This document shows, piece by piece, positions 29,844 to 47,551 of a DNA stretch of 47,914 nt. The DNA comes from Rhodospirillales bacterium (GTDB lineage Bacteria > Pseudomonadota > Alphaproteobacteria > Rhodospirillales > JAPHRK01). Below the pieces are notes generated by a model, which searched no databases, was not told where the DNA came from, and saw nothing but the letters and a program-made list of their open reading frames with translations. Made by a program: the position numbers and the translations under genes. The DNA lies in NCBI GenBank assembly GCA_026196105.1, contig JAPHRK010000028.1, forward strand, positions 1 to 47,914, in the 5' to 3' direction. Within the stretch, counting starts at the first letter, position 1. Every line of letters begins with the position of its first letter.

Positions 29844-31217
29844 CTATTTAAAAGGCAGACCGCCACCAGGCATCATACCCGGTGGCATACCGCCACTGCG
29901 CATAAAGCTCTTCTTGCCCATCTTACCTACTTTTTTCATCACAGCACTCATCTGTTTATGCTGCTTGAGAATCTTGTTGACCTCTTGAACAGTTGTCCCA
30001 GACCCGGCAGCAATTCTCTTGCGCCGTGAAGCCTTGATTAGATTAGGGTTTTGCCGTTCTTTGATGGTCATGGAGAGAATGATCGCTTCTTGGTGACCAA
30101 TCGTCTTATCGTCGATGTTCGCTTCAGAAATCTGCTTCTTCATCTTACCCATGCCGGGCAACATGCCAAGGAGACCGTTCATATCGCCCATCTTTTTAAT
30201 CTGGCGGAGTTGGCCGAGCATATCTTCAAAGTTAAACTGGCCCTTCATCACCTTTTTGGCGAGGGCTTCAGCTTCTTCGGCCTCCATGGTTTCGCCGGCT
30301 TTTTCCACCAGAGAAACCACATCGCCCATACCTAAAATACGACTGGCAATCCGGTCAGCATGGAAGGGCTCAAGGGCATCAATCTTTTCACCGGAGCCCA
30401 TAAACTTGATGGGGCATCCTGTAATGGTTTTCATGGAAAGAGCGGCACCGCCGCGGGCATCACCATCAATACGGGTTAAGACGATCCCGGTAACGCCTAC
30501 TTTTTCATTAAATTCTTTTGCCACCGTGACCGCATCTTGTCCGGTCATGGCATCAGTAACTAAGAGGGTTTCCGTTGGCTTGGCTACATCCCGAATAGCA
30601 GCAACTTCAGCCATCAATTCCATATCAATATGGAGGCGACCCGCTGTATCGAGGATCACCACGTCGTAACCTTCTAAGCGACCGGCTTGCATAGCGCGCT
30701 TAGCAATAGCGACAGGTTTTTCACCCATAATGATCGGCAGAGTAGCAACTTCGGCTTGTTTACCGAGAATTTCTAGCTGTTGTTGCGCCGCAGGGCGATA
30801 AACGTCCAATGAAGCCAGCAAAACTTTCTTCTTCTGCTTATTCTTAAGGCTCAAACCGAGTTTAGCTGAACTGGTTGTTTTACCAGAGCCTTGCAGACCC
30901 ACCATTAAGATGGCAACTGGTGGGGTCGCGGTGAGGTTTATTTCACTGTCATCAGATTCCAAAAGAGCTGTAAGCTCATCTTGAACAATCTTAATGACCA
31001 TCTGGCCAGGGCTAACGCTCTTGATAACGTTTTGACCGACAGCTTTCTCGCCAACGGCAGCGACAAAATCTTTAACCACAGGCAGAGCCACATCTGCTTC
31101 AAGCAAAGCGACACGCACTTCACGCATTGCGGCCTGGACATCTTTCTCCGACAGCGCGCCGCGCTTAGTCAGTTTATCAAAAATGCCGCCGAGGCGGGTT
31201 GAAAGATTATCAAACAT
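29844..31217 (-). CDS. ffh: Signal recognition particle protein Ffh
   Basis: 457 residues from the ATG at 31217 (M-F-D-N-L-S-T-R-L-G); an upstream GTG/TTG extension to 31232 is not favoured. N domain, then the GTPase: G-L-Q-G-S-G-K-T-T (P-loop), D-T-A-G-R, and T-R-I-D-G-D-A-R-G-G. The methionine-rich M domain and tail (G-G-M-P-P-G-M-M-P-G-G-G) bind signal peptides and SRP RNA. Its receptor partner ftsY is also in the window. A promoter-terminator pair lies just upstream and may control it. Confidence 0.97.
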   Translation of the reverse strand: MFDNLSTRLGGIFDKLTKRGALSEKDVQAAMREVRVALLEADVALPVVKDFVAAVGEKAVGQNVIKSVSPGQMVIKIVQDELTALLESDDSEINLTATPPVAILMVGLQGSGKTTSSAKLGLSLKNKQKKKVLLASLDVYRPAAQQQLEILGKQAEVATLPIIMGEKPVAIAKRAMQAGRLEGYDVVILDTAGRLHIDMELMAEVAAIRDVAKPTETLLVTDAMTGQDAVTVAKEFNEKVGVTGIVLTRIDGDARGGAALSMKTITGCPIKFMGSGEKIDALEPFHADRIASRILGMGDVVSLVEKAGETMEAEEAEALAKKVMKGQFNFEDMLGQLRQIKKMGDMNGLLGMLPGMGKMKKQISEANIDDKTIGHQEAIILSMTIKERQNPNLIKASRRKRIAAGSGTTVQEVNKILKQHKQMSAVMKKVGKMGKKSFMRSGGMPPGMMPGGGLPFK

Positions 31218-31272
31218 TAAAGTTGTTACCAACAGTTCTTAAAAGCAGTTACAGCTCAGACAATTTAGAAGC

Positions 31273-31308
31273 AAAAAACGCCAGTGCGCGAACCTTCGCG
31301 GACTGGCG
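31273..31308 (-). terminator. Intrinsic terminator upstream of ffh
   Basis: On the minus strand CGCCAGT and ACTGGCG flank CGCGAA and TTCGCG (one C-C mismatch) to give a long stem with a two-base centre, followed by TTTTTT. It lies between a promoter (31347-31375) and the ffh start (31217), so it ends a short transcript or attenuates ffh. Confidence 0.75.
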
Positions 31309-31340
31309 GCACCCAAGAATTCCTCAGGCGTCATCTAAGC
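31273..31340 (-). ncRNA. Possible small RNA or ffh leader transcript
   Basis: From a predicted start near 31340, seven bases past the -10 box, to the terminator at 31273 gives about 68 bases. It has no SRP RNA core (no GGAAG tetraloop motif), so it is not 4.5S RNA. The segment GACGCC in the leader could pair with GGCGTT of the terminator, an alternative fold that would open the terminator. Whether it is an independent RNA or an attenuated leader cannot be told from sequence. Confidence 0.35.
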
Positions 31341-31346
31341 GTGCGC

Positions 31347-31375
31347 AACATATTGTTTTGCACCAACAGAGTCAA
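31347..31375 (-). promoter_or_regulatory. Sigma-70-like promoter upstream of ffh
   Basis: On the minus strand TTGACT (31375-31370) and TATGTT (31352-31347) are spaced by 17 bases. It drives the leader RNA at 31340-31273 and possibly ffh. In the rest of 31376-31604 no gene is seen. It holds the likely promoter of the XRE gene and short repeats (TTGCAAAG, CTGCAAAG). Confidence 0.5.
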
Positions 31376-31604
31376 GGCCGGAATAACCCTACTTTTATTG
31401 AGATATTTCCAAATTATGAATAGGCTTTTAACAAAAAGTGAGACACCCTTGAAGTCAGCCCCCTTTGGGCCTCACATAGAAGTCATATTTGAAACAAATA
31501 CAATGATAAAAAGACAGTTTCAAAAGAATTACCTTGCAAAGTTGCTGCAAAGAGGCGACTGCAAGTGTTACAACTATTAAGTAGTGGTTACGAAGGAAGT
31601 TAAA

Positions 31605-32033
31605 ATGGCAAGACGTGTAGGAAGAAGTACACCAGATCCGATAGATAAGTACGTAGGATCACGTATTCGTGGTAGGCGGCTTGGCTTGGGTATGAGCCAA
31701 ACGAAGCTTGGCGATGCAATCTCTGTGACTTTTCAACAGATCCAGAAATATGAGAACGGCACCAACCGCGTCGGGGCGAGTAATCTTTTTAGAGTATCTA
31801 AAGTTTTAAATGTAAATGTCGGATATTTCTTCCAAGAAATGCCGGAGGCTGGTGAAAAGGCCGATGGGGATATGGGTTCGCCGGACCAATCTCAGGACAC
31901 TTTAAGTGATGACCCCTTAACCTCAAAAGATGCCATAGAACTCTCTCATAACTATTATGCTATCGAAGACGAACAGGTCCGCAAACGGATTTACCAACTG
32001 GTCAAATCTTTAGCAGAGGCATTTAGAGAGTAA
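31605..32033 (+). CDS. XRE-family transcriptional regulator (alphaproteobacterial type)
   Basis: 142 residues from the ATG at 31605, preceded by AAGGAAG; a GTG at 31584 is less likely. The N-terminal part has the alphaproteobacterial pattern D-P-I-D-K-Y-V-G-S-R-I-R-G-R-R-L-G-L-G-M-S-Q, and the helix-turn-helix continues L-G-D-A-I-S-V-T-F-Q-Q-I-Q-K-Y-E-N-G-T-N-R (about 24-75). The tail is acidic. Relatives are common cell-cycle or housekeeping regulators; the targets here are unknown. A second XRE gene follows. Confidence 0.88.
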   Translation: MARRVGRSTPDPIDKYVGSRIRGRRLGLGMSQTKLGDAISVTFQQIQKYENGTNRVGASNLFRVSKVLNVNVGYFFQEMPEAGEKADGDMGSPDQSQDTLSDDPLTSKDAIELSHNYYAIEDEQVRKRIYQLVKSLAEAFRE

Positions 32034-32072
32034 TCCACCTAAAAAACTACAACCATTGCTCGATAAAGATTA

Positions 32073-32096
32073 AAAAACGAGGTGATTTAATACCTC
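32073..32096. terminator. Terminator-like hairpin between the two XRE genes
   Basis: GAGGT (32079-32083) and ACCTC (32092-32096) form a short stem. On the minus strand it is followed by TTTTTT; on the plus strand by ATTTCTTCT. It may act in either direction; both flanking genes are on the plus strand. Confidence 0.4.
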
Positions 32097-32201
32097 ATTT
32101 CTTCTCTAAATGCTTGGGTGTCAGACAACCTCGTGCTATACCTAGGGTGGATCAGTAAATCACTGTACTATTTATTAGTGTATTGGGTAGGAAATGCCGT
32201 C

Positions 32202-32621
32202 ATGGAAGTCTCAGGAAATCCTGACAATGAAAACTTAGAAAACGGCCTTATCAATGCTCACGTAAGTGAAATGATAAAGAATCGTAGAGAGAAACAGGGC
32301 ATTACTAAAATTGCCCTTGCTCAAGCCCTAGGAATTAGCCCCCGCCAATTAACTAAAATAGAGCGGGGTAAGGCCCGCTTATCTGCCTCTCATATTTTTA
32401 AAGCGGCAACTTATTTGGAAACCACTGTAGAAGCCCTTTTTCAAGGTATTCATGACGAAAATTTCCAATCTTTGCCAGATGATATTCAGCCAACTACCTG
32501 TCAATCAATTCCCCCAGAAGAAGTTGAGCAGTTGCAGCGTTATTTTCTCTCAATTCCTGAAGGCAAAACCCGTAATAATGTTCTGAAAATGATTAAAGCC
32601 ACAGCCCAGGCAAAAATTTGA
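32202..32621 (+). CDS. XRE-family transcriptional regulator
   Basis: 139 residues from the ATG at 32202, preceded by AGGAA nine bases upstream; a GTG at 32118 would add 28 residues of unlikely hydrophobic sequence. The helix-turn-helix (about 20-75) reads I-K-N-R-R-E-K-Q-G-I-T-K-I-A-L-A-Q-A-L-G-I-S-P-R-Q-L-T-K-I-E-R-G. The tail ends with a K-T-R-N-N-V-L-K-M-I helix. It is not closely similar to the upstream XRE protein outside the motif. Function unknown. Confidence 0.82.
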   Translation: MEVSGNPDNENLENGLINAHVSEMIKNRREKQGITKIALAQALGISPRQLTKIERGKARLSASHIFKAATYLETTVEALFQGIHDENFQSLPDDIQPTTCQSIPPEEVEQLQRYFLSIPEGKTRNNVLKMIKATAQAKI

Positions 32622-32658
32622 GTCGACAGGTTAATCTTTAGACCTGCACAATGGGTTT

Positions 32659-33306
32659 ATGGATTTAGACAAGATCAATATGCGTGTATCTGAGCAAGGT
32701 TTCTGCGTTCGCGGAGCCTTTAATATGAAGGACCACGATCAGACAGCCATCTTGATTGGAAACATTGGCGGTGATCTGTGGCCTCATTTTTCACCCCATC
32801 AATCAAAAACCTCACATCCCTTAGACCAATGGACAAAGAAGGTTTTGCAAGAAATTGCCACTGATATTAGGGCTGACGTTTACTTTCCCTTTGAAGGCCC
32901 CCCGTTCCACCCCTTCCAGAAATGGGCCCAACAAGCCGAACAGGTTTTTCCTTCCCCTATTGGCCCTCTTATCCATCCGACTTATGGTCTGTGGCATGCT
33001 TATAGGGCTTTGTTTGTCTTCAAAGACAAACAGCTACTTGAAGAGAAGACAGCAGATCTTGCCTCCCCATGCCTTACTTGTTTAGATAAGCCCTGCCTTC
33101 ACACCTGCCCGGTTTCAGCTTTTAACGAGACTTCAGGTTATGATGTGCCAAAATGTATTGCCCACTTAAAAACTCCCGAGGGGCAAGATTGTATGGCAAA
33201 AGGGTGTATCGCCCGACGAGCCTGCCCTGTTGGGAAAAATTATATTTACCCCCCTCAAATGGCCAAATTTCATATGGAAAAATTTGTTGAAATTAATGGC
33301 AAATAA
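32659..33306 (+). CDS. Small two-cluster Fe-S protein with a CblC/QueG-like N-terminal half
   Basis: 215 residues. The C-terminal part carries eight cysteines (138, 141, 146, 150, 166, 178, 183, 189) in the pattern C-x2-C-x4-C-x3-C-P and C...C-x4-C-x5-C-P, enough for two [4Fe-4S] clusters. The N-terminal half has H-P-L-D-Q-W near 53, F-P-F-E-G-P-P near 76 and I-H-P-T-Y-G-L-W-H-A-Y-R near 105. The last resembles the human cobalamin chaperone MMACHC (I-H-P-R-F-G-G-W-F-A-I-R, from memory). QueG and reductive dehalogenases join the same two modules but are longer. A cofactor reductase or chaperone role is inferred. No gene partner is obvious; bluB is elsewhere in the window. Confidence 0.6.
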   Translation: MDLDKINMRVSEQGFCVRGAFNMKDHDQTAILIGNIGGDLWPHFSPHQSKTSHPLDQWTKKVLQEIATDIRADVYFPFEGPPFHPFQKWAQQAEQVFPSPIGPLIHPTYGLWHAYRALFVFKDKQLLEEKTADLASPCLTCLDKPCLHTCPVSAFNETSGYDVPKCIAHLKTPEGQDCMAKGCIARRACPVGKNYIYPPQMAKFHMEKFVEINGK

Positions 33307-33488
33307 TTAAGGCTATATGGTCTTCAGGCTTTTCAAAAACCCCGATTAATCCCTCCCAGTAATGCAAATAAGCTAGCAGAACTTTAGATGAGAATTCATC
33401 TTTCAGTCGTGCAAGCTATATTTAAGCTATTAAAATCATTATGACTTTTCCTAACCTGGCCTAATTATTCTATTCATTACCACAATTA

Positions 33489-33531
33489 TATTTGACAACC
33501 AATTGTCATTATGACAATGTATTGTCAAATA
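33489..33531. promoter_or_regulatory. Nested palindromic operator of the marR operon
   Basis: Two inverted repeats share one centre at 33510. The inner pair is ATTGTCAT (33502-33509) and ATGACAAT (33511-33518); the outer pair is TATTTGACAA and TTGTCAAATA (33489-33498, 33522-33531). All are variants of a TTGACA/TTGTCA half-site. It lies 13 bases before the marR start and contains the likely -35 box. No gene is seen in 33307-33488. Confidence 0.75.
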
Positions 33532-33543
33532 ATGAGGTCGGAT

Positions 33544-33999
33544 ATGAAACACACATCAAAAGGCAGTGCCTTTACTGAAATCGCTTTAGAAATATTTCGT
33601 TTGAATGGGGCGCTGCTTGCAGCGGGCGACAAGCTTGGGGCTGATCTTGGGATCACAAGTGCGCGCTGGCAGATTATGGGCGCTCTTGGAGAGTCCTCAA
33701 TGACAGTTCCACAAATTGCCAATGAAATGGGCTTAACCCGTCAAGGGGTACAACGCACAGTAAATATTCTGCTTGAGGAAGGAATTGTTGAATTACACGA
33801 TAACCCCAACCACAAACGCGCCAAGTTGGTACGCCTTAGCTCTGAAGGGGCTCACAAGCTTAATGAAATTAGTATGAGGCAGATATCCTGGGCGAACAGC
33901 CTTGCTGATAAATTTACGGAAGATGATCTCCAAACAGCCAACCAAACCATCCATCAACTCAGGCTCATGATCACAAACCTAGACAATGAAAGGGGATAA
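33544..33999 (+). CDS. MarR-family transcriptional regulator
   Basis: 151 residues from the ATG at 33544, preceded by GAGG. The MarR winged helix shows L-G-I-T-S-A-R-W-Q-I-M-G-A-L, M-T-V-P-Q-I-A-N-E-M-G-L-T-R-Q-G-V-Q-R-T-V-N and the wing D-N-P-N-H-K-R-A-K-L-V. It faces a nested palindrome and is followed two bases later by two DUF2269-type membrane proteins, so it probably represses itself and them in response to a ligand. The ligand is not known. Confidence 0.9.
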   Translation: MKHTSKGSAFTEIALEIFRLNGALLAAGDKLGADLGITSARWQIMGALGESSMTVPQIANEMGLTRQGVQRTVNILLEEGIVELHDNPNHKRAKLVRLSSEGAHKLNEISMRQISWANSLADKFTEDDLQTANQTIHQLRLMITNLDNERG

Positions 34000-34001
34000 T
34001 T

Positions 34002-34481
34002 ATGTTTAAATTTTTAAAAGGCGTTCATATCCTGGCACTTTGTATCTTCGTTGGCAGTGTCCCAGCTCACATAGTCCTAGGAGCAGTGGCAGACCCAACG
34101 GGGGATTACCAATCTTTTGCCATTTTTCATCAAGCAAAATATCTCCTGACCTACACTCTGACGACTGCAGGGGTTATTGCAGTAATCTTGTCAGGACTCC
34201 TATTAGCAATCTCAAATAAAGGGATGCTCAAACAAAGATGGTTACAAATTAAACTCGCGCTGGTCGCTTTAATAGCCCTGAATGGAGGGTTAATACTGAC
34301 ACCTCTCGCCGAAAAAATGACCGCCCTTGCAGTTAAGGCTGCTCAAAGTGGAACTCTAGAAACAACCTTTGCAGATTTAGCAGGGCGCGAATCTATCGCT
34401 GGAGCGGCAAACATATTGCTGATTATCACAGTCGTGTTCATCGCTATCTATAAGCCCGCATTTGGTCAGAAAAGGGCTTAG
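34002..34481 (+). CDS. DUF2269-type integral membrane protein
   Basis: 159 residues with four predicted membrane helices (about 5-25, 50-70, 80-100, 135-152). Conserved-looking histidines near the helix ends (H-I-L, A-H-I-V, F-H-Q-A) could bind heme or a metal, as proposed for related CopD-like four-helix proteins; that is inference. It overlaps nothing but starts two bases after marR and ends two bases before the next gene. Function unknown. Confidence 0.72.
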   Translation: MFKFLKGVHILALCIFVGSVPAHIVLGAVADPTGDYQSFAIFHQAKYLLTYTLTTAGVIAVILSGLLLAISNKGMLKQRWLQIKLALVALIALNGGLILTPLAEKMTALAVKAAQSGTLETTFADLAGRESIAGAANILLIITVVFIAIYKPAFGQKRA

Positions 34482-34483
34482 TT

Positions 34484-35071
34484 ATGGACAGTTTTCTTCT
34501 CCTGCGATTCATTCACTTCATAGGCCTTACATTAATAGGAGCTGGCCTGATAGGTGTGTTTATCTGCGATATGCGCTCCCGCCAAACCAAAGAACTCCCG
34601 CTTTTTGGTCAATTGGTTTCTATGATTGCTCTTTTCTATGATGGACTCGTGGTGCCTGGGGCGATATTACTCATAATAAGCGGTACCTGGATGATTGTTG
34701 AGTTCCATGATGGCTGGGAATTCCTTCAAACACCCTGGTTAGCCGGAATGGTCTTCTTGTTTATCTTTGAATTTGTTGAAGGCAATACCATTACCCGTAT
34801 CTACTTTTTACGCCTAAGAAAACTAACCAAAGAAGCTGTTGCCCTTGGCCAGTGGACATCAGGCCTGCGCAAAGCCAGGGGAGAGCAATTGGCCTCTTTC
34901 ACTCATTTTTTAGATATCCCCATTTTGACCGTTATTATCTCATTGGGGGCATTGCGCCCTACTGACTGGACAACATTTTTTATCGGTATCGCCATTGGCC
35001 TTACTGTCGCAACCCTCTTAAATATCATCGTCCCTAAACTTTATCCCTGGAGCGAAGCTGAAAACCAATAG
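34484..35071 (+). CDS. DUF2269-type integral membrane protein
   Basis: 195 residues with about five hydrophobic segments. It starts F-L-L-L-R-F-I-H-F-I-G-L-T-L-I-G-A-G and has F-V-E-G-N-T-I-T-R-I-Y-F-L-R-L, a pattern I associate with DUF2269. It follows the other DUF2269 gene by two bases, so the pair is probably one complex, controlled by the upstream MarR protein. Function unknown. Confidence 0.75.
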   Translation: MDSFLLLRFIHFIGLTLIGAGLIGVFICDMRSRQTKELPLFGQLVSMIALFYDGLVVPGAILLIISGTWMIVEFHDGWEFLQTPWLAGMVFLFIFEFVEGNTITRIYFLRLRKLTKEAVALGQWTSGLRKARGEQLASFTHFLDIPILTVIISLGALRPTDWTTFFIGIAIGLTVATLLNIIVPKLYPWSEAENQ

Positions 35072-35140
35072 GCTCTGATGTTTCCGAGGATACTGATTTT
35101 CACTAGACTCTGGGGTCAAACAGGCCATATAAGGCGGGTT

Positions 35141-35983
35141 ATGGACGCTTTACCTTTTGTGAAAATGCATGGCCTGGGCAACGATTTTGTTGTGCTTGAT
35201 GCCCGTTCAACGCCCTTAGATTTAAGCGCGGAGCAAACGCGCGCCATTGCTAATCGTAAATTAGGTGTCGGCTGCGACCAACTTATTATAATTGAGCCAC
35301 CTCGCAACAACGACGCATATGCTTTTATGCAAATCAGGAATGCTGACGGTGATGAGGTTGAAGCCTGTGGCAATGCGACCCGTTGCATAGCCCATCTTTT
35401 GATGACAGAAACCGGGCAAGAGAGCCTTATTGTTGAAACAGTTGTAGGGTTGCTCGACTGCCATGCTGTAAACGATGGGCAAATCACTGTCGATATGGGG
35501 ATGGCCCGTCTCGACTGGCAGGAAATTCCTCTGGCCCAAGCGATGGGAACAGAGCAAATTAATCTTGAAGTCGGCCCTCTCGCCAACCCCGTTGCTGTTA
35601 ATGTCGGCAACCCTCATGCGGTGTTCTTTGTAGAAGATGTCGAGACTATTGATCTGGTGCAGTTTGGCCCCCAAGTCGAAAACCATCCCACCTTCCCAGA
35701 ACGCACAAATGTAGAAGCCGTTCATCTTCAACAAGACGGAAGCCTGCGCATGCGGGTTTGGGAACGAGGTGTGGGCATCACCCAAGCCTGTGGCACCGGC
35801 GCTTGTGCGGCATTAGTTGCGGCAGCTCGTCGGGGGCTTACGGGGCGCAAAGCCCAAGTCATTCTTGATGGTGGACCTTTGGAAATTGAATGGCTAGAAA
35901 ACGGCCATATCCAAATGACCGGGCCAATTGCCTATAGCTTTGAAGGCACCATTGATCCTTCCCTCTTGACCGACAATGGCTGA
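35141..35983 (+). CDS. dapF: Diaminopimelate epimerase
   Basis: 280 residues from the ATG at 35141; an ATG at 35078 would extend 21 residues without family support. It converts LL- to meso-diaminopimelate for lysine and peptidoglycan. Catalytic cysteines: Cys76 in E-A-C-G-N-A-T-R-C and Cys217 in Q-A-C-G-T-G-A-C. The start M-x-x-F-x-K-M-H-G-L-G-N-D-F is typical. It overlaps mtaB by eight bases. Confidence 0.97.
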   Translation: MDALPFVKMHGLGNDFVVLDARSTPLDLSAEQTRAIANRKLGVGCDQLIIIEPPRNNDAYAFMQIRNADGDEVEACGNATRCIAHLLMTETGQESLIVETVVGLLDCHAVNDGQITVDMGMARLDWQEIPLAQAMGTEQINLEVGPLANPVAVNVGNPHAVFFVEDVETIDLVQFGPQVENHPTFPERTNVEAVHLQQDGSLRMRVWERGVGITQACGTGACAALVAAARRGLTGRKAQVILDGGPLEIEWLENGHIQMTGPIAYSFEGTIDPSLLTDNG

Positions 35984-37217
35984 AGCCAAGGTTGTCACTT
36001 TAGGGTGTCGCCTTAACACCTATGAATCTGAAGTCATACGCGACCACGCCCAGCAAGCTGGGTTGGAAGACACGCTAATCGTCAATACTTGCGCAGTGAC
36101 CAACGAAGCAGAGCGCCAAGCGCGTCAAACCATTCGCCGCCTGCGCCGAGAAAACCCTGAAGCCAAAATCGTTGTAACGGGGTGCGCTGCCCAGATTGAC
36201 CCTGATCGTTTTGCCGCGATGGATGAAGTAGATCGGGTGATCGGTAATAAAGAAAAAATGGAAGCCCAAAGCTTCCTGCCTGAAGAGCACGAACCTGTTG
36301 TCGTTAGTGATATCATGCAAGTTAAAGAAACGGCTCATCACCTGATCGGGGGGTTTGGTGGCCGAGCTCGGGCCTTTGTTCAGGTTCAGCAAGGCTGCGA
36401 CCATCGCTGTACTTTTTGCATTATTCCTTTTGGACGCGGCCCCAACCGCAGCCTGCCCATCGGTGCCGTGGCTGAACAAATAAGTACTTTGGTCAATAAT
36501 GGCTTTAAAGAAGTCGTGCTTAGCGGTGTCGATATCGCCTCTTACGGTCAAGACTTGCCGGGCAAACCCCCTTTAGGCCAAATGGTTCGACGCCTCCTTA
36601 ATTCCGTCCCGGGATTAGAACGTTTACGCCTCTCTTCCCTTGATCCTGCCGCTATTGACCCCGAATTCATGGCTTTGCTCGCTGATGAACCCAGATTGAT
36701 GCCCCATATTCATCTCAGCCTCCAAGCCGGTGATGATATGGTCCTTAAACGCATGAAACGCCGCCATTCCCGTGGGCAGGTTATTGAACTTTGTGATGCA
36801 ATGCGCCAGGCACGCCCCGATGTGGTTTTTGGCGCTGACCTGATCGCCGGGTTCCCGACAGAAACCGATGAGATGTTTGATAATGGCCTAGCCTGTTTTG
36901 AAGAATGCGGCCTGACTTTCACCCACGTCTTCCCTTATTCTCCACGTCCTGGAACTCCAGCAGCTAGTATGCCAGAAGTCCCAAAGGCCGTTCGCAAAGA
37001 GCGCGCTGCCAAAGTTCGGGAGTTTGGTGATAAGGCGCTAAACAGCTTCCTTCACTCTTGCATTGGAGATACGGCAAAGGTACTGGTTGAGCAACAAAGT
37101 AAGGGGCATACAGAACATTATGCTCCAATCCGTCTTTTGACCCCCGCGCCAGAAGGTGAGATCATAAGTGCAAAAGTTACAGCCGCTGAAAACGGCACAT
37201 TGATTGGTGAAATTTAG
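35976..37217 (+). CDS. mtaB: tRNA t6A37 methylthiotransferase MtaB
   Basis: 413 residues. Radical SAM enzyme that makes ms2t6A37 in tRNA. N-terminal domain ligand cysteines are in T-L-G-C-R-L-N, V-N-T-C-A-V-T and V-T-G-C-A-A; the radical SAM motif is C-D-H-R-C-T-F-C; a TRAM-like segment ends the chain. The R-L-N rather than K-x-N wording and the length fit MtaB rather than MiaB. It is in the run dapF-mtaB-ftsY. Confidence 0.94.
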   Translation: MAEAKVVTLGCRLNTYESEVIRDHAQQAGLEDTLIVNTCAVTNEAERQARQTIRRLRRENPEAKIVVTGCAAQIDPDRFAAMDEVDRVIGNKEKMEAQSFLPEEHEPVVVSDIMQVKETAHHLIGGFGGRARAFVQVQQGCDHRCTFCIIPFGRGPNRSLPIGAVAEQISTLVNNGFKEVVLSGVDIASYGQDLPGKPPLGQMVRRLLNSVPGLERLRLSSLDPAAIDPEFMALLADEPRLMPHIHLSLQAGDDMVLKRMKRRHSRGQVIELCDAMRQARPDVVFGADLIAGFPTETDEMFDNGLACFEECGLTFTHVFPYSPRPGTPAASMPEVPKAVRKERAAKVREFGDKALNSFLHSCIGDTAKVLVEQQSKGHTEHYAPIRLLTPAPEGEIISAKVTAAENGTLIGEI

Positions 37218-37229
37218 GGCCTATTGAAT

Positions 37230-38165
37230 ATGAGTGACGAAAAAAAAGGAAACTGGTTAAGCCGCATGAAAGAGGGGCTCAGTCGCTCTTCAACCAAACT
37301 TAAAACTGGCATTACTGACCGTTTCACCAAACGCAAACTTGACGATGAAGCTCTTGAAGAACTTGAAGAACTCCTAATTACGGCAGATTTAGGGGTCGAA
37401 ACCGCCATGCGGCTTTCTGCAGCCATTGCCAAGTCCCGTTTTGGCAAAGAAATGGACTCAGAAGAAATCCGCACTGGCCTCGCCGAAGAGATCACCCCAA
37501 TCCTTGAGCCCATTGCCAAACCCCTTGAAATCAACCCCGCCAACCGCCCCCATGTTGTTTTAGTTTGTGGCGTTAATGGTAGTGGCAAGACCACGACTAT
37601 TGGCAAGATGGCTAAGCAATTCCAGCAGCAAGGCAAAACCGTGATGTTGGCTGCGGCTGACACCTTTCGTGCAGCCGCAGTTGAACAGCTAAAGGTTTGG
37701 GGAGAGCGCAACAGTTGCCCGGTTGTTGCTAAGGAAACAGGCGCAGATGCCGCCGGCCTCGTTTATGACGCCGTTGAGCGCGCTAAACATGAAAATATTG
37801 ATGTTCTGCTCGTTGATACAGCCGGAAGATTACAAAATCGAGCGGACTTGATGGCTGAGTTAGAAAAAATTATTCGAGTAGTTAAAAAAGTCGACGATAC
37901 CGCTCCGCATAACTGCCTGCTTGTCCTTGATGCCACGGTTGGGCAAAACGCCCATAGTCAGGTGGAGATTTTTGGCAAGATCGTCAATGTCACAGGTTTA
38001 ATTCTCACCAAACTTGATGGCACAGCCCGCGGTGGTGTGCTTGTTGCCCTTGCTGATAAGTTCAAACTCCCCGTTCACGCCATTGGCGTCGGTGAAGGTA
38101 TTGATGACCTTCGCCCCTTTGAGGCCAGAGCCTTTTCAAGAAGCTTGCTTGGATTGGATAGCTGA
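37230..38165 (+). CDS. ftsY: Signal recognition particle receptor FtsY
   Basis: 311 residues from the ATG at 37230; a TTG at 37224 is not needed. NG domains only, without the long acidic A domain of E. coli FtsY, as in many alphaproteobacteria. GTPase motifs: G-V-N-G-S-G-K-T-T-T, D-T-F-R-A-A-A-V-E-Q-L, D-T-A-G-R and T-K-L-D-G-T-A-R-G-G. It docks SRP-ribosome complexes at the inner membrane, and Ffh is encoded at 29844-31217. Confidence 0.97.
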   Translation: MSDEKKGNWLSRMKEGLSRSSTKLKTGITDRFTKRKLDDEALEELEELLITADLGVETAMRLSAAIAKSRFGKEMDSEEIRTGLAEEITPILEPIAKPLEINPANRPHVVLVCGVNGSGKTTTIGKMAKQFQQQGKTVMLAAADTFRAAAVEQLKVWGERNSCPVVAKETGADAAGLVYDAVERAKHENIDVLLVDTAGRLQNRADLMAELEKIIRVVKKVDDTAPHNCLLVLDATVGQNAHSQVEIFGKIVNVTGLILTKLDGTARGGVLVALADKFKLPVHAIGVGEGIDDLRPFEARAFSRSLLGLDS

Positions 38166-46906: not shown

Positions 46907-47551
46907 TTGAGCACGGCACCTGATTTTGACGAAGCGTTCAAGGATAAGCTGGAAGACCTGTTCCGTTGGCGTCGGGATGTGCGCAAATTTAAAACCGATC
47001 CCTTGCCCGTTGACCTGGTTGACAAAATCCTCTCCATCGCCTGTGTTTATTCCCCATCTGTTGGCAACAGCCAGCCCTGGCGCTTTGTGAAGGTTAATGA
47101 CCCCAAACGCCGAGCCGCGGTCAAAGAGAATTTTGAAATCCAAAACCGGGAAGCCCTGGATAATTACCAAGGCGAAAAAGCCAAACTCTATGCCAGCTTA
47201 AAACTTGCGGGGCTTGATCAAGCCCCGGTCCACATCGCCGTTTTTGCCGATACCCAAACCGAGCGCGGCGCAGGCTTGGGCCAATCCACCATGCCCGAAA
47301 CCCTTAAGTACTCCGCCGCCAATGCCATCTATACTTTTTGGCTAGCTGCACGGGCCTACGGCGTCGGCGTCGGCTGGGTCTCCATCGTTGACCCCAAAAT
47401 GGTCGCGGACCTCATGGACACTCCACCTGAATGGGAGTTCATGGGCTACCTCTGCGTCGGCTACCCCGAAGAAGAAAACCAAACCCCCGAACTCGTCCGC
47501 CACGGCTGGCAAGAACGCGGGGAATTAGAAGCCTTTATTTTCGAACGTTAA
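46907..47551 (+). CDS. bluB: 5,6-dimethylbenzimidazole synthase (BluB)
   Basis: 214 residues. Nitroreductase-fold flavoenzyme that breaks down FMN with oxygen to make the lower ligand of cobalamin. Seen: F-R-W-R-R-D-V-R-K-F-K, S-P-S-V-G-N-S-Q-P-W-R-F near 50 (FMN contacts) and Y-G-V-G-V-G-W-V-S-I. Start is a TTG at 46907 with a GGGGGG-rich site upstream; no nearby ATG fits. No cobalamin riboswitch was seen. It implies the organism can complete cobalamin. Confidence 0.93.
   Translation: MSTAPDFDEAFKDKLEDLFRWRRDVRKFKTDPLPVDLVDKILSIACVYSPSVGNSQPWRFVKVNDPKRRAAVKENFEIQNREALDNYQGEKAKLYASLKLAGLDQAPVHIAVFADTQTERGAGLGQSTMPETLKYSAANAIYTFWLAARAYGVGVGWVSIVDPKMVADLMDTPPEWEFMGYLCVGYPEEENQTPELVRHGWQERGELEAFIFER

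Follow-up and report, generated by a model that had tools for sequence, protein, structure and literature searches.

What does a 215-residue protein do that joins a half resembling the cobalamin chaperone MMACHC (CblC) to a half carrying eight cysteines? The question is raised by the window, by which we mean the whole stretch of 47,914 nucleotides from a Rhodospirillales bacterium that was analysed here. In it, an intact open reading frame (P0001) runs from ATG to TAA at 32659-33306 on the plus strand, and the one frame that was read on the opposite strand contains ten stops. From the translation, a family alignment and an AlphaFold model, we describe the product as a CblC-like protein with two putative [4Fe-4S] clusters. 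Its N-terminal half, of CblC/nitroreductase type by structure match, spans approximately residues 1-134 (32659-33060, plus strand; the boundary is our reading) and includes the IHPTYGLWHAYR motif at residues 105-116 (32971-33006, plus strand), placed by HMM alignment to 3sby_A. The C-terminal half follows on the same strand with cysteines 1-4 in the pattern C138-x2-C141-x4-C146-x3-C150 (33070-33108; 113 to 115 of 115 members per position) and cysteines 5-8 as C166 ... C178-x4-C183-x5-C189-P (33154-33225; 112 to 113 of 115). A ninth cysteine, C16, lies outside this pattern, and 26 residues separate the last cysteine from the chain end.

The gene belongs to a family that is well spread among related genomes. 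Of 40 genomes taken as relatives, with the window's own counted, 24 contain a homologue, and a class-wide profile scan gave a match at E<=0.001 in 85 of 289 genomes. True members were recognised in 68 of these 289 (best E <1e-30, own genome counted), together with one divergent member in genome G137; the remaining 16 genomes, with weaker matches, were left out of the family count. A phylum scan returned matches at E <1e-20 in 51 of 299 genomes, 14 of which form one family of another class, where carriers number 14 of 42. A scan of genome contigs with the single protein found one locus only, and the weak second profile match in the window's own genome is a NapG-type ferredoxin.

Among 159 family reading frames in the surveyed loci, 115 are distinct and make up our conservation set. 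An earlier note on this DNA had singled out the reading frame, the motif and the eight cysteines of the C-terminal half, and all three stood: every cysteine of the eight is present in 111 of the 115 relatives, and the motif arginine, Arg116, is kept in 115 of 115, while Gln87, aligned with Gln131 of MMACHC, is kept in 87 only. As homologues recur across genomes and retain both the eight cysteines and Arg116, the motif and the cysteine pattern are not chance. The four exceptions to the eight-cysteine rule are a member whose C-terminus is out of frame (L102), a truncated one (L144), one with frame breaks near the C-terminus (L158) and the divergent member of G137 (L123, G137:C65). The truncated frame lies in a locus (L144, G009:C1) that holds two family copies ~3 kb apart, the first of which is cut short.

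In two-cluster ferredoxins, cysteines 1, 2, 3 and 8 bind one cluster and cysteines 4-7 the other. By the same scheme, the ferredoxin half of the window protein would hold two [4Fe-4S] clusters, with cluster I on cysteines 1, 2, 3 and 8 and cluster II on cysteines 4, 5, 6 and 7. L123, a single sequence, lacks exactly cysteines 4-7 and keeps 1, 2, 3 and 8, a loss that fits the proposed assignment because cysteines 4-7 serve one cluster in two-cluster ferredoxins; it is possibly a one-cluster form. It is also the best match to the Pfam MMACHC model (PF16690) among the members scanned (E 3.1e-4).

The predicted structure bears out the suggestion of a CblC/nitroreductase-type fold. The AlphaFold model of the window protein, built with 21 sequences, has a mean pLDDT of 92.3 and a pTM of 0.87, and its top Foldseek matches in the PDB are MMACHC (E 2e-5), QueG (1e-4) and PceA (8.5e-4). 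VIA-align likewise places MMACHC first over the full length (Z 14.0, 183 residues at 3.8 Å and 17% identity, model residues 1-215 on chain residues 7-233), followed by QueG (Z 10.3) and then RdhA (8.2 for PDB 8q4h_A, and 7.9 for PceA, RdhA rows under Z 8 being ones that may reflect just a shared arrangement). The first row outside the MMACHC, QueG and RdhA families reaches Z 4.9, and CblD falls below that row at 4.5. A second model, of a cobS-linked member that is 26% identical to the window protein (L139; pLDDT 81.7), gives Z 11.1 for MMACHC and 10.6 for QueG, a tie, then 7.8 for RdhA, 7.5 for CblD and at most 6.1 for FMN nitroreductases. Since the predicted models contain no ligands, it is we who infer the cobalamin and the clusters.

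The motif ties the N-terminal half to MMACHC residue by residue. In the profile alignment to 3sby_A, IHPTYGLWHAYR falls on MMACHC 150-161, so that Arg116 pairs with Arg161, Trp112 with Trp157 and, using the printed chain numbers, Gln87 with Gln131; the arginine of the MMACHC-like motif pointed out in the earlier note is kept in all 115 relatives. The accessible text of PMC10740964 describes Arg161 of MMACHC as anchoring glutathione and as one of the most prominent sites of missense changes in cblC disease. QueG has the consensus Gly-Ser-Trp-Leu-Phe-Leu-Gly-Glu across this stretch, without an arginine, and the profile-profile alignment has a gap there. Because Arg116 matches Arg161 while QueG has no arginine at that place, the motif side looks like CblC, and the putative two-cluster side like QueG and RdhA.

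Family models recognise the protein only in part. No Pfam or NCBIfam model matches the window protein at its cut-off. The top Pfam match is the sub-threshold PF16690 (E 0.0026, 17.8 bits against a gathering cut-off of 27), a model that matches 11 of 21 members at E<=1 and is over its cut-off in none of the 289 class genomes; three sub-threshold PF16690 matches in these genomes all lie inside members of the CblC-like family. The commonest NCBIfam match is TIGR00276 (QueG), found in 19 of 21 members at E<=1 (best 0.00031). Neither TIGR02486 (RdhA, 160-bit cut-off) nor PF14574 (the RACo C-terminal domain of RamA) is listed for the window protein at E<=10. By profile-profile comparison, the family is related to QueG (E 1.3e-7, the alignment spanning residues 90-176 only) as well as to a family of QueG-like SCP2 fusions (E 1.4e-10). 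The latter (L114-L118; e.g., G073:C14, ~440 aa) combines a QueG/CblC-type half and ferredoxin cysteines with a C-terminal SCP2 domain, this tail having been established for L114, one of the five; four of the five are excluded weak matches of the class scan and one comes from the phylum scan. Ferredoxin families match the window protein weakly and within the cysteine region alone, so the clear homology to a characterised ferredoxin family that could have overturned the original proposal was not seen. The label of plain ferredoxin was rejected as falling short, since the N-terminal half shows a complete predicted CblC-type fold and conserves its motif arginine to the same degree as the cysteines. 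We conclude that the known CblC/QueG/RdhA superfamily gains a new family here.

A comparison with the known members of that superfamily shows which parts are shared. The whole chain has the predicted fold of MMACHC, the eukaryotic B12 decyanase, dealkylase and chaperone, and both have the motif IHP-x-[YF]-G-x-W-x-A-x-R with the arginine at position 161. MMACHC uses glutathione or flavin for reduction, whereas the family would have its own electron wiring. By aligned ranges, the eight-cysteine half of the window protein occupies the place of the MMACHC four-helix cap (185-234 in the accessible part of PMC4705923), and MMACHC is described without a ferredoxin domain in the accessible part of PMC4646009. 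The class III cobalamin/[4Fe-4S] proteins, as set out in that part of PMC4646009, place a two-cluster ferredoxin module after a nitroreductase-type cobalamin module, an order that the family matches by predicted fold and cysteines. QueG shows the same order, yet its second cysteine spacing is C-x2-C-x3-CP instead of C-x4-C-x5-CP, its N-terminal half is longer, it lacks Arg116, and its ferredoxin half is followed by a HEAT-repeat domain (PMC4646009, same part) that the family does not have. RdhA also has both modules, but the RdhA chains compared are 413-701 residues long against 215 here, in agreement with the remark in the earlier note that QueG and reductive dehalogenases join the same parts in much longer chains.

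In the window, the gene is placed between rimM-rpsP-ffh and an MtaB-type gene (gene names are our reading); two further loci (L021 and L069) have rimM, rpsP and the MtaB-type gene in common with it. These flanking genes are unrelated to B12. A helix-turn-helix regulator (31584-32033, plus strand), a neighbour only, and a second one (32118-32621, plus strand) precede the gene; the second is separated from the gene start by a 37 bp gap and is possibly cotranscribed with it. This tandem of regulators (31584-32621), on the same strand as the gene, is absent from the listed recurrent neighbours. No riboswitch was found at the gathering threshold in 30000-38000 of the window or in loci L100, L102 and L103, promoter and terminator scans gave values inside the spread of shuffles, and a search against PHROGs left P0001 and P0008 without a match. 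The presence of bluB, which the earlier note had linked to synthesis of the cobalamin lower ligand, was confirmed: this 5,6-dimethylbenzimidazole synthase gene lies at 46907-47551 on the plus strand (TIGR02476, 260.8 bits against a cut-off of 150), but it is a weak argument for the role of the gene, as bluB lies 13.6 kb away.

Surveying the neighbours of relatives, as the earlier note had proposed, added a B12 context. Across 82 loci, a gene from a set of B12-type genes lies within 3 kb of the member in 12, spanning six genome families, and within 200 bp in 9; two further loci have such a gene at 7.8-7.9 kb, and 67 have none of the searched genes in the stretch examined at each locus. Genes adjoining relatives in several lineages are mtgB, mtgC, mtgA-ramA or cobS (mtg names were assigned by us after the accessible text of PMC12478193). 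On pSymB of S. meliloti Ak57, a member annotated 'ferredoxin' lies directly downstream of mtgB, a trimethylamine methyltransferase family gene, alongside genes for an mtgC-type cobalamin-binding protein, DUF1638, an ASKHA (RamA-type) protein and a methyltetrahydrofolate-cobalamin methyltransferase. The arrangement downstream of mtgB recurs on plasmid IV of P. aminovorans, and the mtg genes are also found as in S. meliloti in a Shinella sp., by tblastn in a record without annotation. At the Paracoccus aminovorans locus, a Dyp-type peroxidase and an encapsulin shell gene (L103, 12771-14596) lie ~4 kb from the member gene. In family f173, mtgB is near the member in five loci, within ~100 bp in four.

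L154 reads target-mtgA-ramA on one strand, an apparent operon; L159 reads target-corrinoid protein-methyltransferase-like-DUF1638; and in L156 and L168 the target diverges from mtgC, with DUF1638. Two loci involve cofactor synthesis: in M. petroleiphilum PM1, the member ends a run of cobO-cbiB-aminotransferase-cobyric acid synthase-cobT-cobS-phosphatase-RNA ligase, and in L139 the target follows cobU-cobT-cobS and shares one base with the end of that run, cobS, while cobO, cbiB and cobQ are convergent. At least one NCBIfam model is exceeded at its cut-off by each of cobU, cobT, cobS, cobO, cbiB and cobQ in L139 and by the methyltetrahydrofolate:corrinoid methyltransferase in L154; the RamA-type protein of L154 and the corrinoid proteins of L156 and L159 have strong NCBIfam matches, yet under cut-offs. 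The six loci of family f49 (L077, L078, L086-L089) share a downstream neighbour that we read as a SixA-type phosphatase (6/6), have an argB-like gene upstream in 4/6 and offer no link to B12.

We propose that the protein is a bacterial cobalamin-processing reductase/chaperone, an iron-sulfur counterpart of CblC, and put the probability of this reading at roughly 60%. It rests on the conservation of the sequence and of particular residue positions, on the predicted fold, and on the genes that lie nearby or co-occur in the same genomes. Against it count the 67 loci with none of the searched B12-type genes, the unrelated flanking genes in the window, the carriers that lack RamA or MttB, the non-carriers that have B12-binding_2 proteins, the sub-threshold PF16690 score, the incomplete conservation of Gln87, the low CblD score of the first model and a fitness study that names other proteins for B12 reactivation. 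The N-terminal half would bind cobalamin base-off, and electrons would pass from a low-potential donor through the ferredoxin half to the cobalt of the base-off cobalamin. The protein would thereby strip or reduce Co(III)/Co(II) cobalamin, and the reduced, upper-ligand-free cofactor may then be handed to MtgC-type corrinoid methyltransferase proteins, to MetH, or to the adenosyltransferase serving class II ribonucleotide reductase. Because a CblC fold appears to be combined with an iron-sulfur relay and relatives often lie beside B12 genes, the protein makes a good candidate for a so far overlooked factor that maintains B12 in a reduced, usable state.

The earlier note had wavered between a cobalamin-dependent reductase and a B12 reductase/chaperone; the choice is unsettled, and the shared Arg161 position and the gene neighbours favour the latter. 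As the former, the protein would be a small class III enzyme in which cob(I)alamin and two clusters reduce an organic substrate, as in QueG and RdhA. The two-part architecture and fold shared with these enzymes and the profile-profile homology to QueG and the SCP2 fusion family speak for this. We nevertheless consider it unlikely: the separate substrate domain is absent from a chain that stops 26 residues past its last cysteine, CblC is the best fold match (though tied with QueG for the L139 model), Arg116 is a CblC residue missing from QueG, the neighbours are cofactor and corrinoid-protein genes, and the genome already has a QueG and two RdhA/QueG-like proteins.

The reductase/chaperone reading can be set against the cobalamin repertoire of whole genomes. 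We compared 40 carriers with 40 non-carriers, picked by us from the class scan, using statistics that ignore phylogeny. RamA is present in 30/40 carriers and 3/40 non-carriers (29/38 against 1/22 in genomes >=2.2 Mb, Fisher p 6e-8) and MttB in 28/40 and 3/40 (27/38 against 1/22, p 4e-7). The class II ribonucleotide reductase NrdJ is over its cut-off in 40/40 and 21/40 (38/38 against 16/22, p 0.0015), QueG in 35/40 and 25/40 (34/38 against 20/22, p 1.0) and CobN in 30/40 and 11/40, while the MetH activation domain occurs in 25/40 and 24/40 (24/38 against 21/22, p 0.005). Eight of the 40 carriers lack any CobN match and 10 have none over the cut-off, G111 and G119 among these having a fragment or a weaker relative. 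RamA is missing from 10 carriers and MttB from 12, and the window's genome has neither; it does have QueG (C75), NrdJ (C32 and C76), CobN (C77) and a MetH whose activation domain is divergent (C63). In the second class, where carriers number 14 of 42, a B12-binding_2 protein is present in 24 of the 28 non-carriers, and one of the 14 carriers (G382) is without a match; B12-binding_2 proteins therefore do not need this gene.

Two narrower roles are unsupported by these counts: a strict MetH reactivase, given the even split of the activation domain and the second-class non-carriers with B12-binding_2, and a role in B12 synthesis only, given the 10 carriers without CobN over cut-off and the presence of NrdJ over cut-off in all 40. 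By score, MetH activation domains form two groups, at E ~1e-120 and ~1e-40; that of the window's genome belongs to the weak group and lies within a MetH-type frame of 1155 codons (L180, G000:C63). The two RdhA/QueG-like proteins of this genome, both under the reductive dehalogenase cut-off, are 351 aa (L119, G000:C38) and 327 aa (L120, G000:C7) long. Carrier genome G200 (L122 and other contigs) has 17 TIGR00276 matches, 16 of them under cut-off and some adjacent, an apparent RdhA/QueG-like expansion.

The association with RamA bears on another explanation, in which the protein is a cobalamin-free electron-transfer or scaffold protein whose CblC-type half docks, as proposed for CblD/MMADHC, while its ferredoxin half feeds RamA, MtgC or MetH. 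CblD does match the L139 model at Z 7.5 (against 4.5 for the first model), and co-occurrence with RamA and the apparent L154 operon would suit such a partner. We regard this as rather improbable, since a quarter of carriers (10/40) have no RamA match and since the motif arginine, in the place of MMACHC Arg161, equals the cysteines in conservation, a sign of a ligand pocket and not of a docking face. With RamA missing from the window's genome, the protein cannot require it in that organism, and the evidence agrees better with a general role in cobalamin use than with one tied to RamA. Although TIGR00276 is the commonest NCBIfam match, it is very improbable that the protein is a minimal or alternative epoxyqueuosine reductase, as the window protein scores 15 bits against the 200-bit equivalog cut-off, the alignment to QueG is confined to residues 90-176 and the chain is too short to include the HEAT-repeat domain; replacement of QueG was rejected, QueG being over its cut-off in 35/40 carriers, including the window's genome.

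The family is also distinct from proteins already connected with B12 reactivation. RamA (RACo_C_ter, PF14574), the corrinoid reductive activase, is a distinct protein and a genomic partner that possibly does the same job, corrinoid cobalt reduction; the two occur mostly in the same genomes. The DUF1638 protein of the split methionine synthase (Price et al. 2018), implicated by fitness data in the accessible text of PMC5764234, is likewise a distinct protein and an accessory B12 gene of the same loci. That text, a Phaeobacter fitness study, names a RamA-like protein and DUF1638 for B12 reactivation and not the CblC-like family, which P. inhibens may or may not carry; the accessible text of a 2025 glycine-betaine study (PMC12478193) names RamA and DUF1638 as reactivation genes, again without the family. 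Members have so far been labelled only ferredoxin or hypothetical, and a literature search, from which subscription papers and preprints largely fell outside, returned no description of the family, the accessible texts of PMC8123684 and PMC11439496 included.

Payne et al. (PMC4646009, accessible part) raise the possibility of further B12- and [4Fe-4S]-dependent families yet to be characterised, and note that a distinct cobalamin-binding motif for finding them is lacking. The CblC-like family, present in 68 of the 289 class genomes sampled, is a concrete candidate for one of these. More tentatively, and we think it doubtful, the family may be the bacterial iron-sulfur form of CblC from which eukaryotic MMACHC descends, the ferredoxin half having given way to the four-helix cap and glutathione having become the electron donor; if so, L123, in which the cluster II ligands alone are lost, would show how such decay starts. 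Two questions become testable, namely the means of cobalamin reduction in these bacteria and the origin of MMACHC. If the proposed function is true, the family would provide a cobalamin reductase/chaperone for aerobic B12-using bacteria, including rhizobia with glycine-betaine demethylation genes, and would be a bacterial counterpart of the human protein whose defects cause cblC disease.
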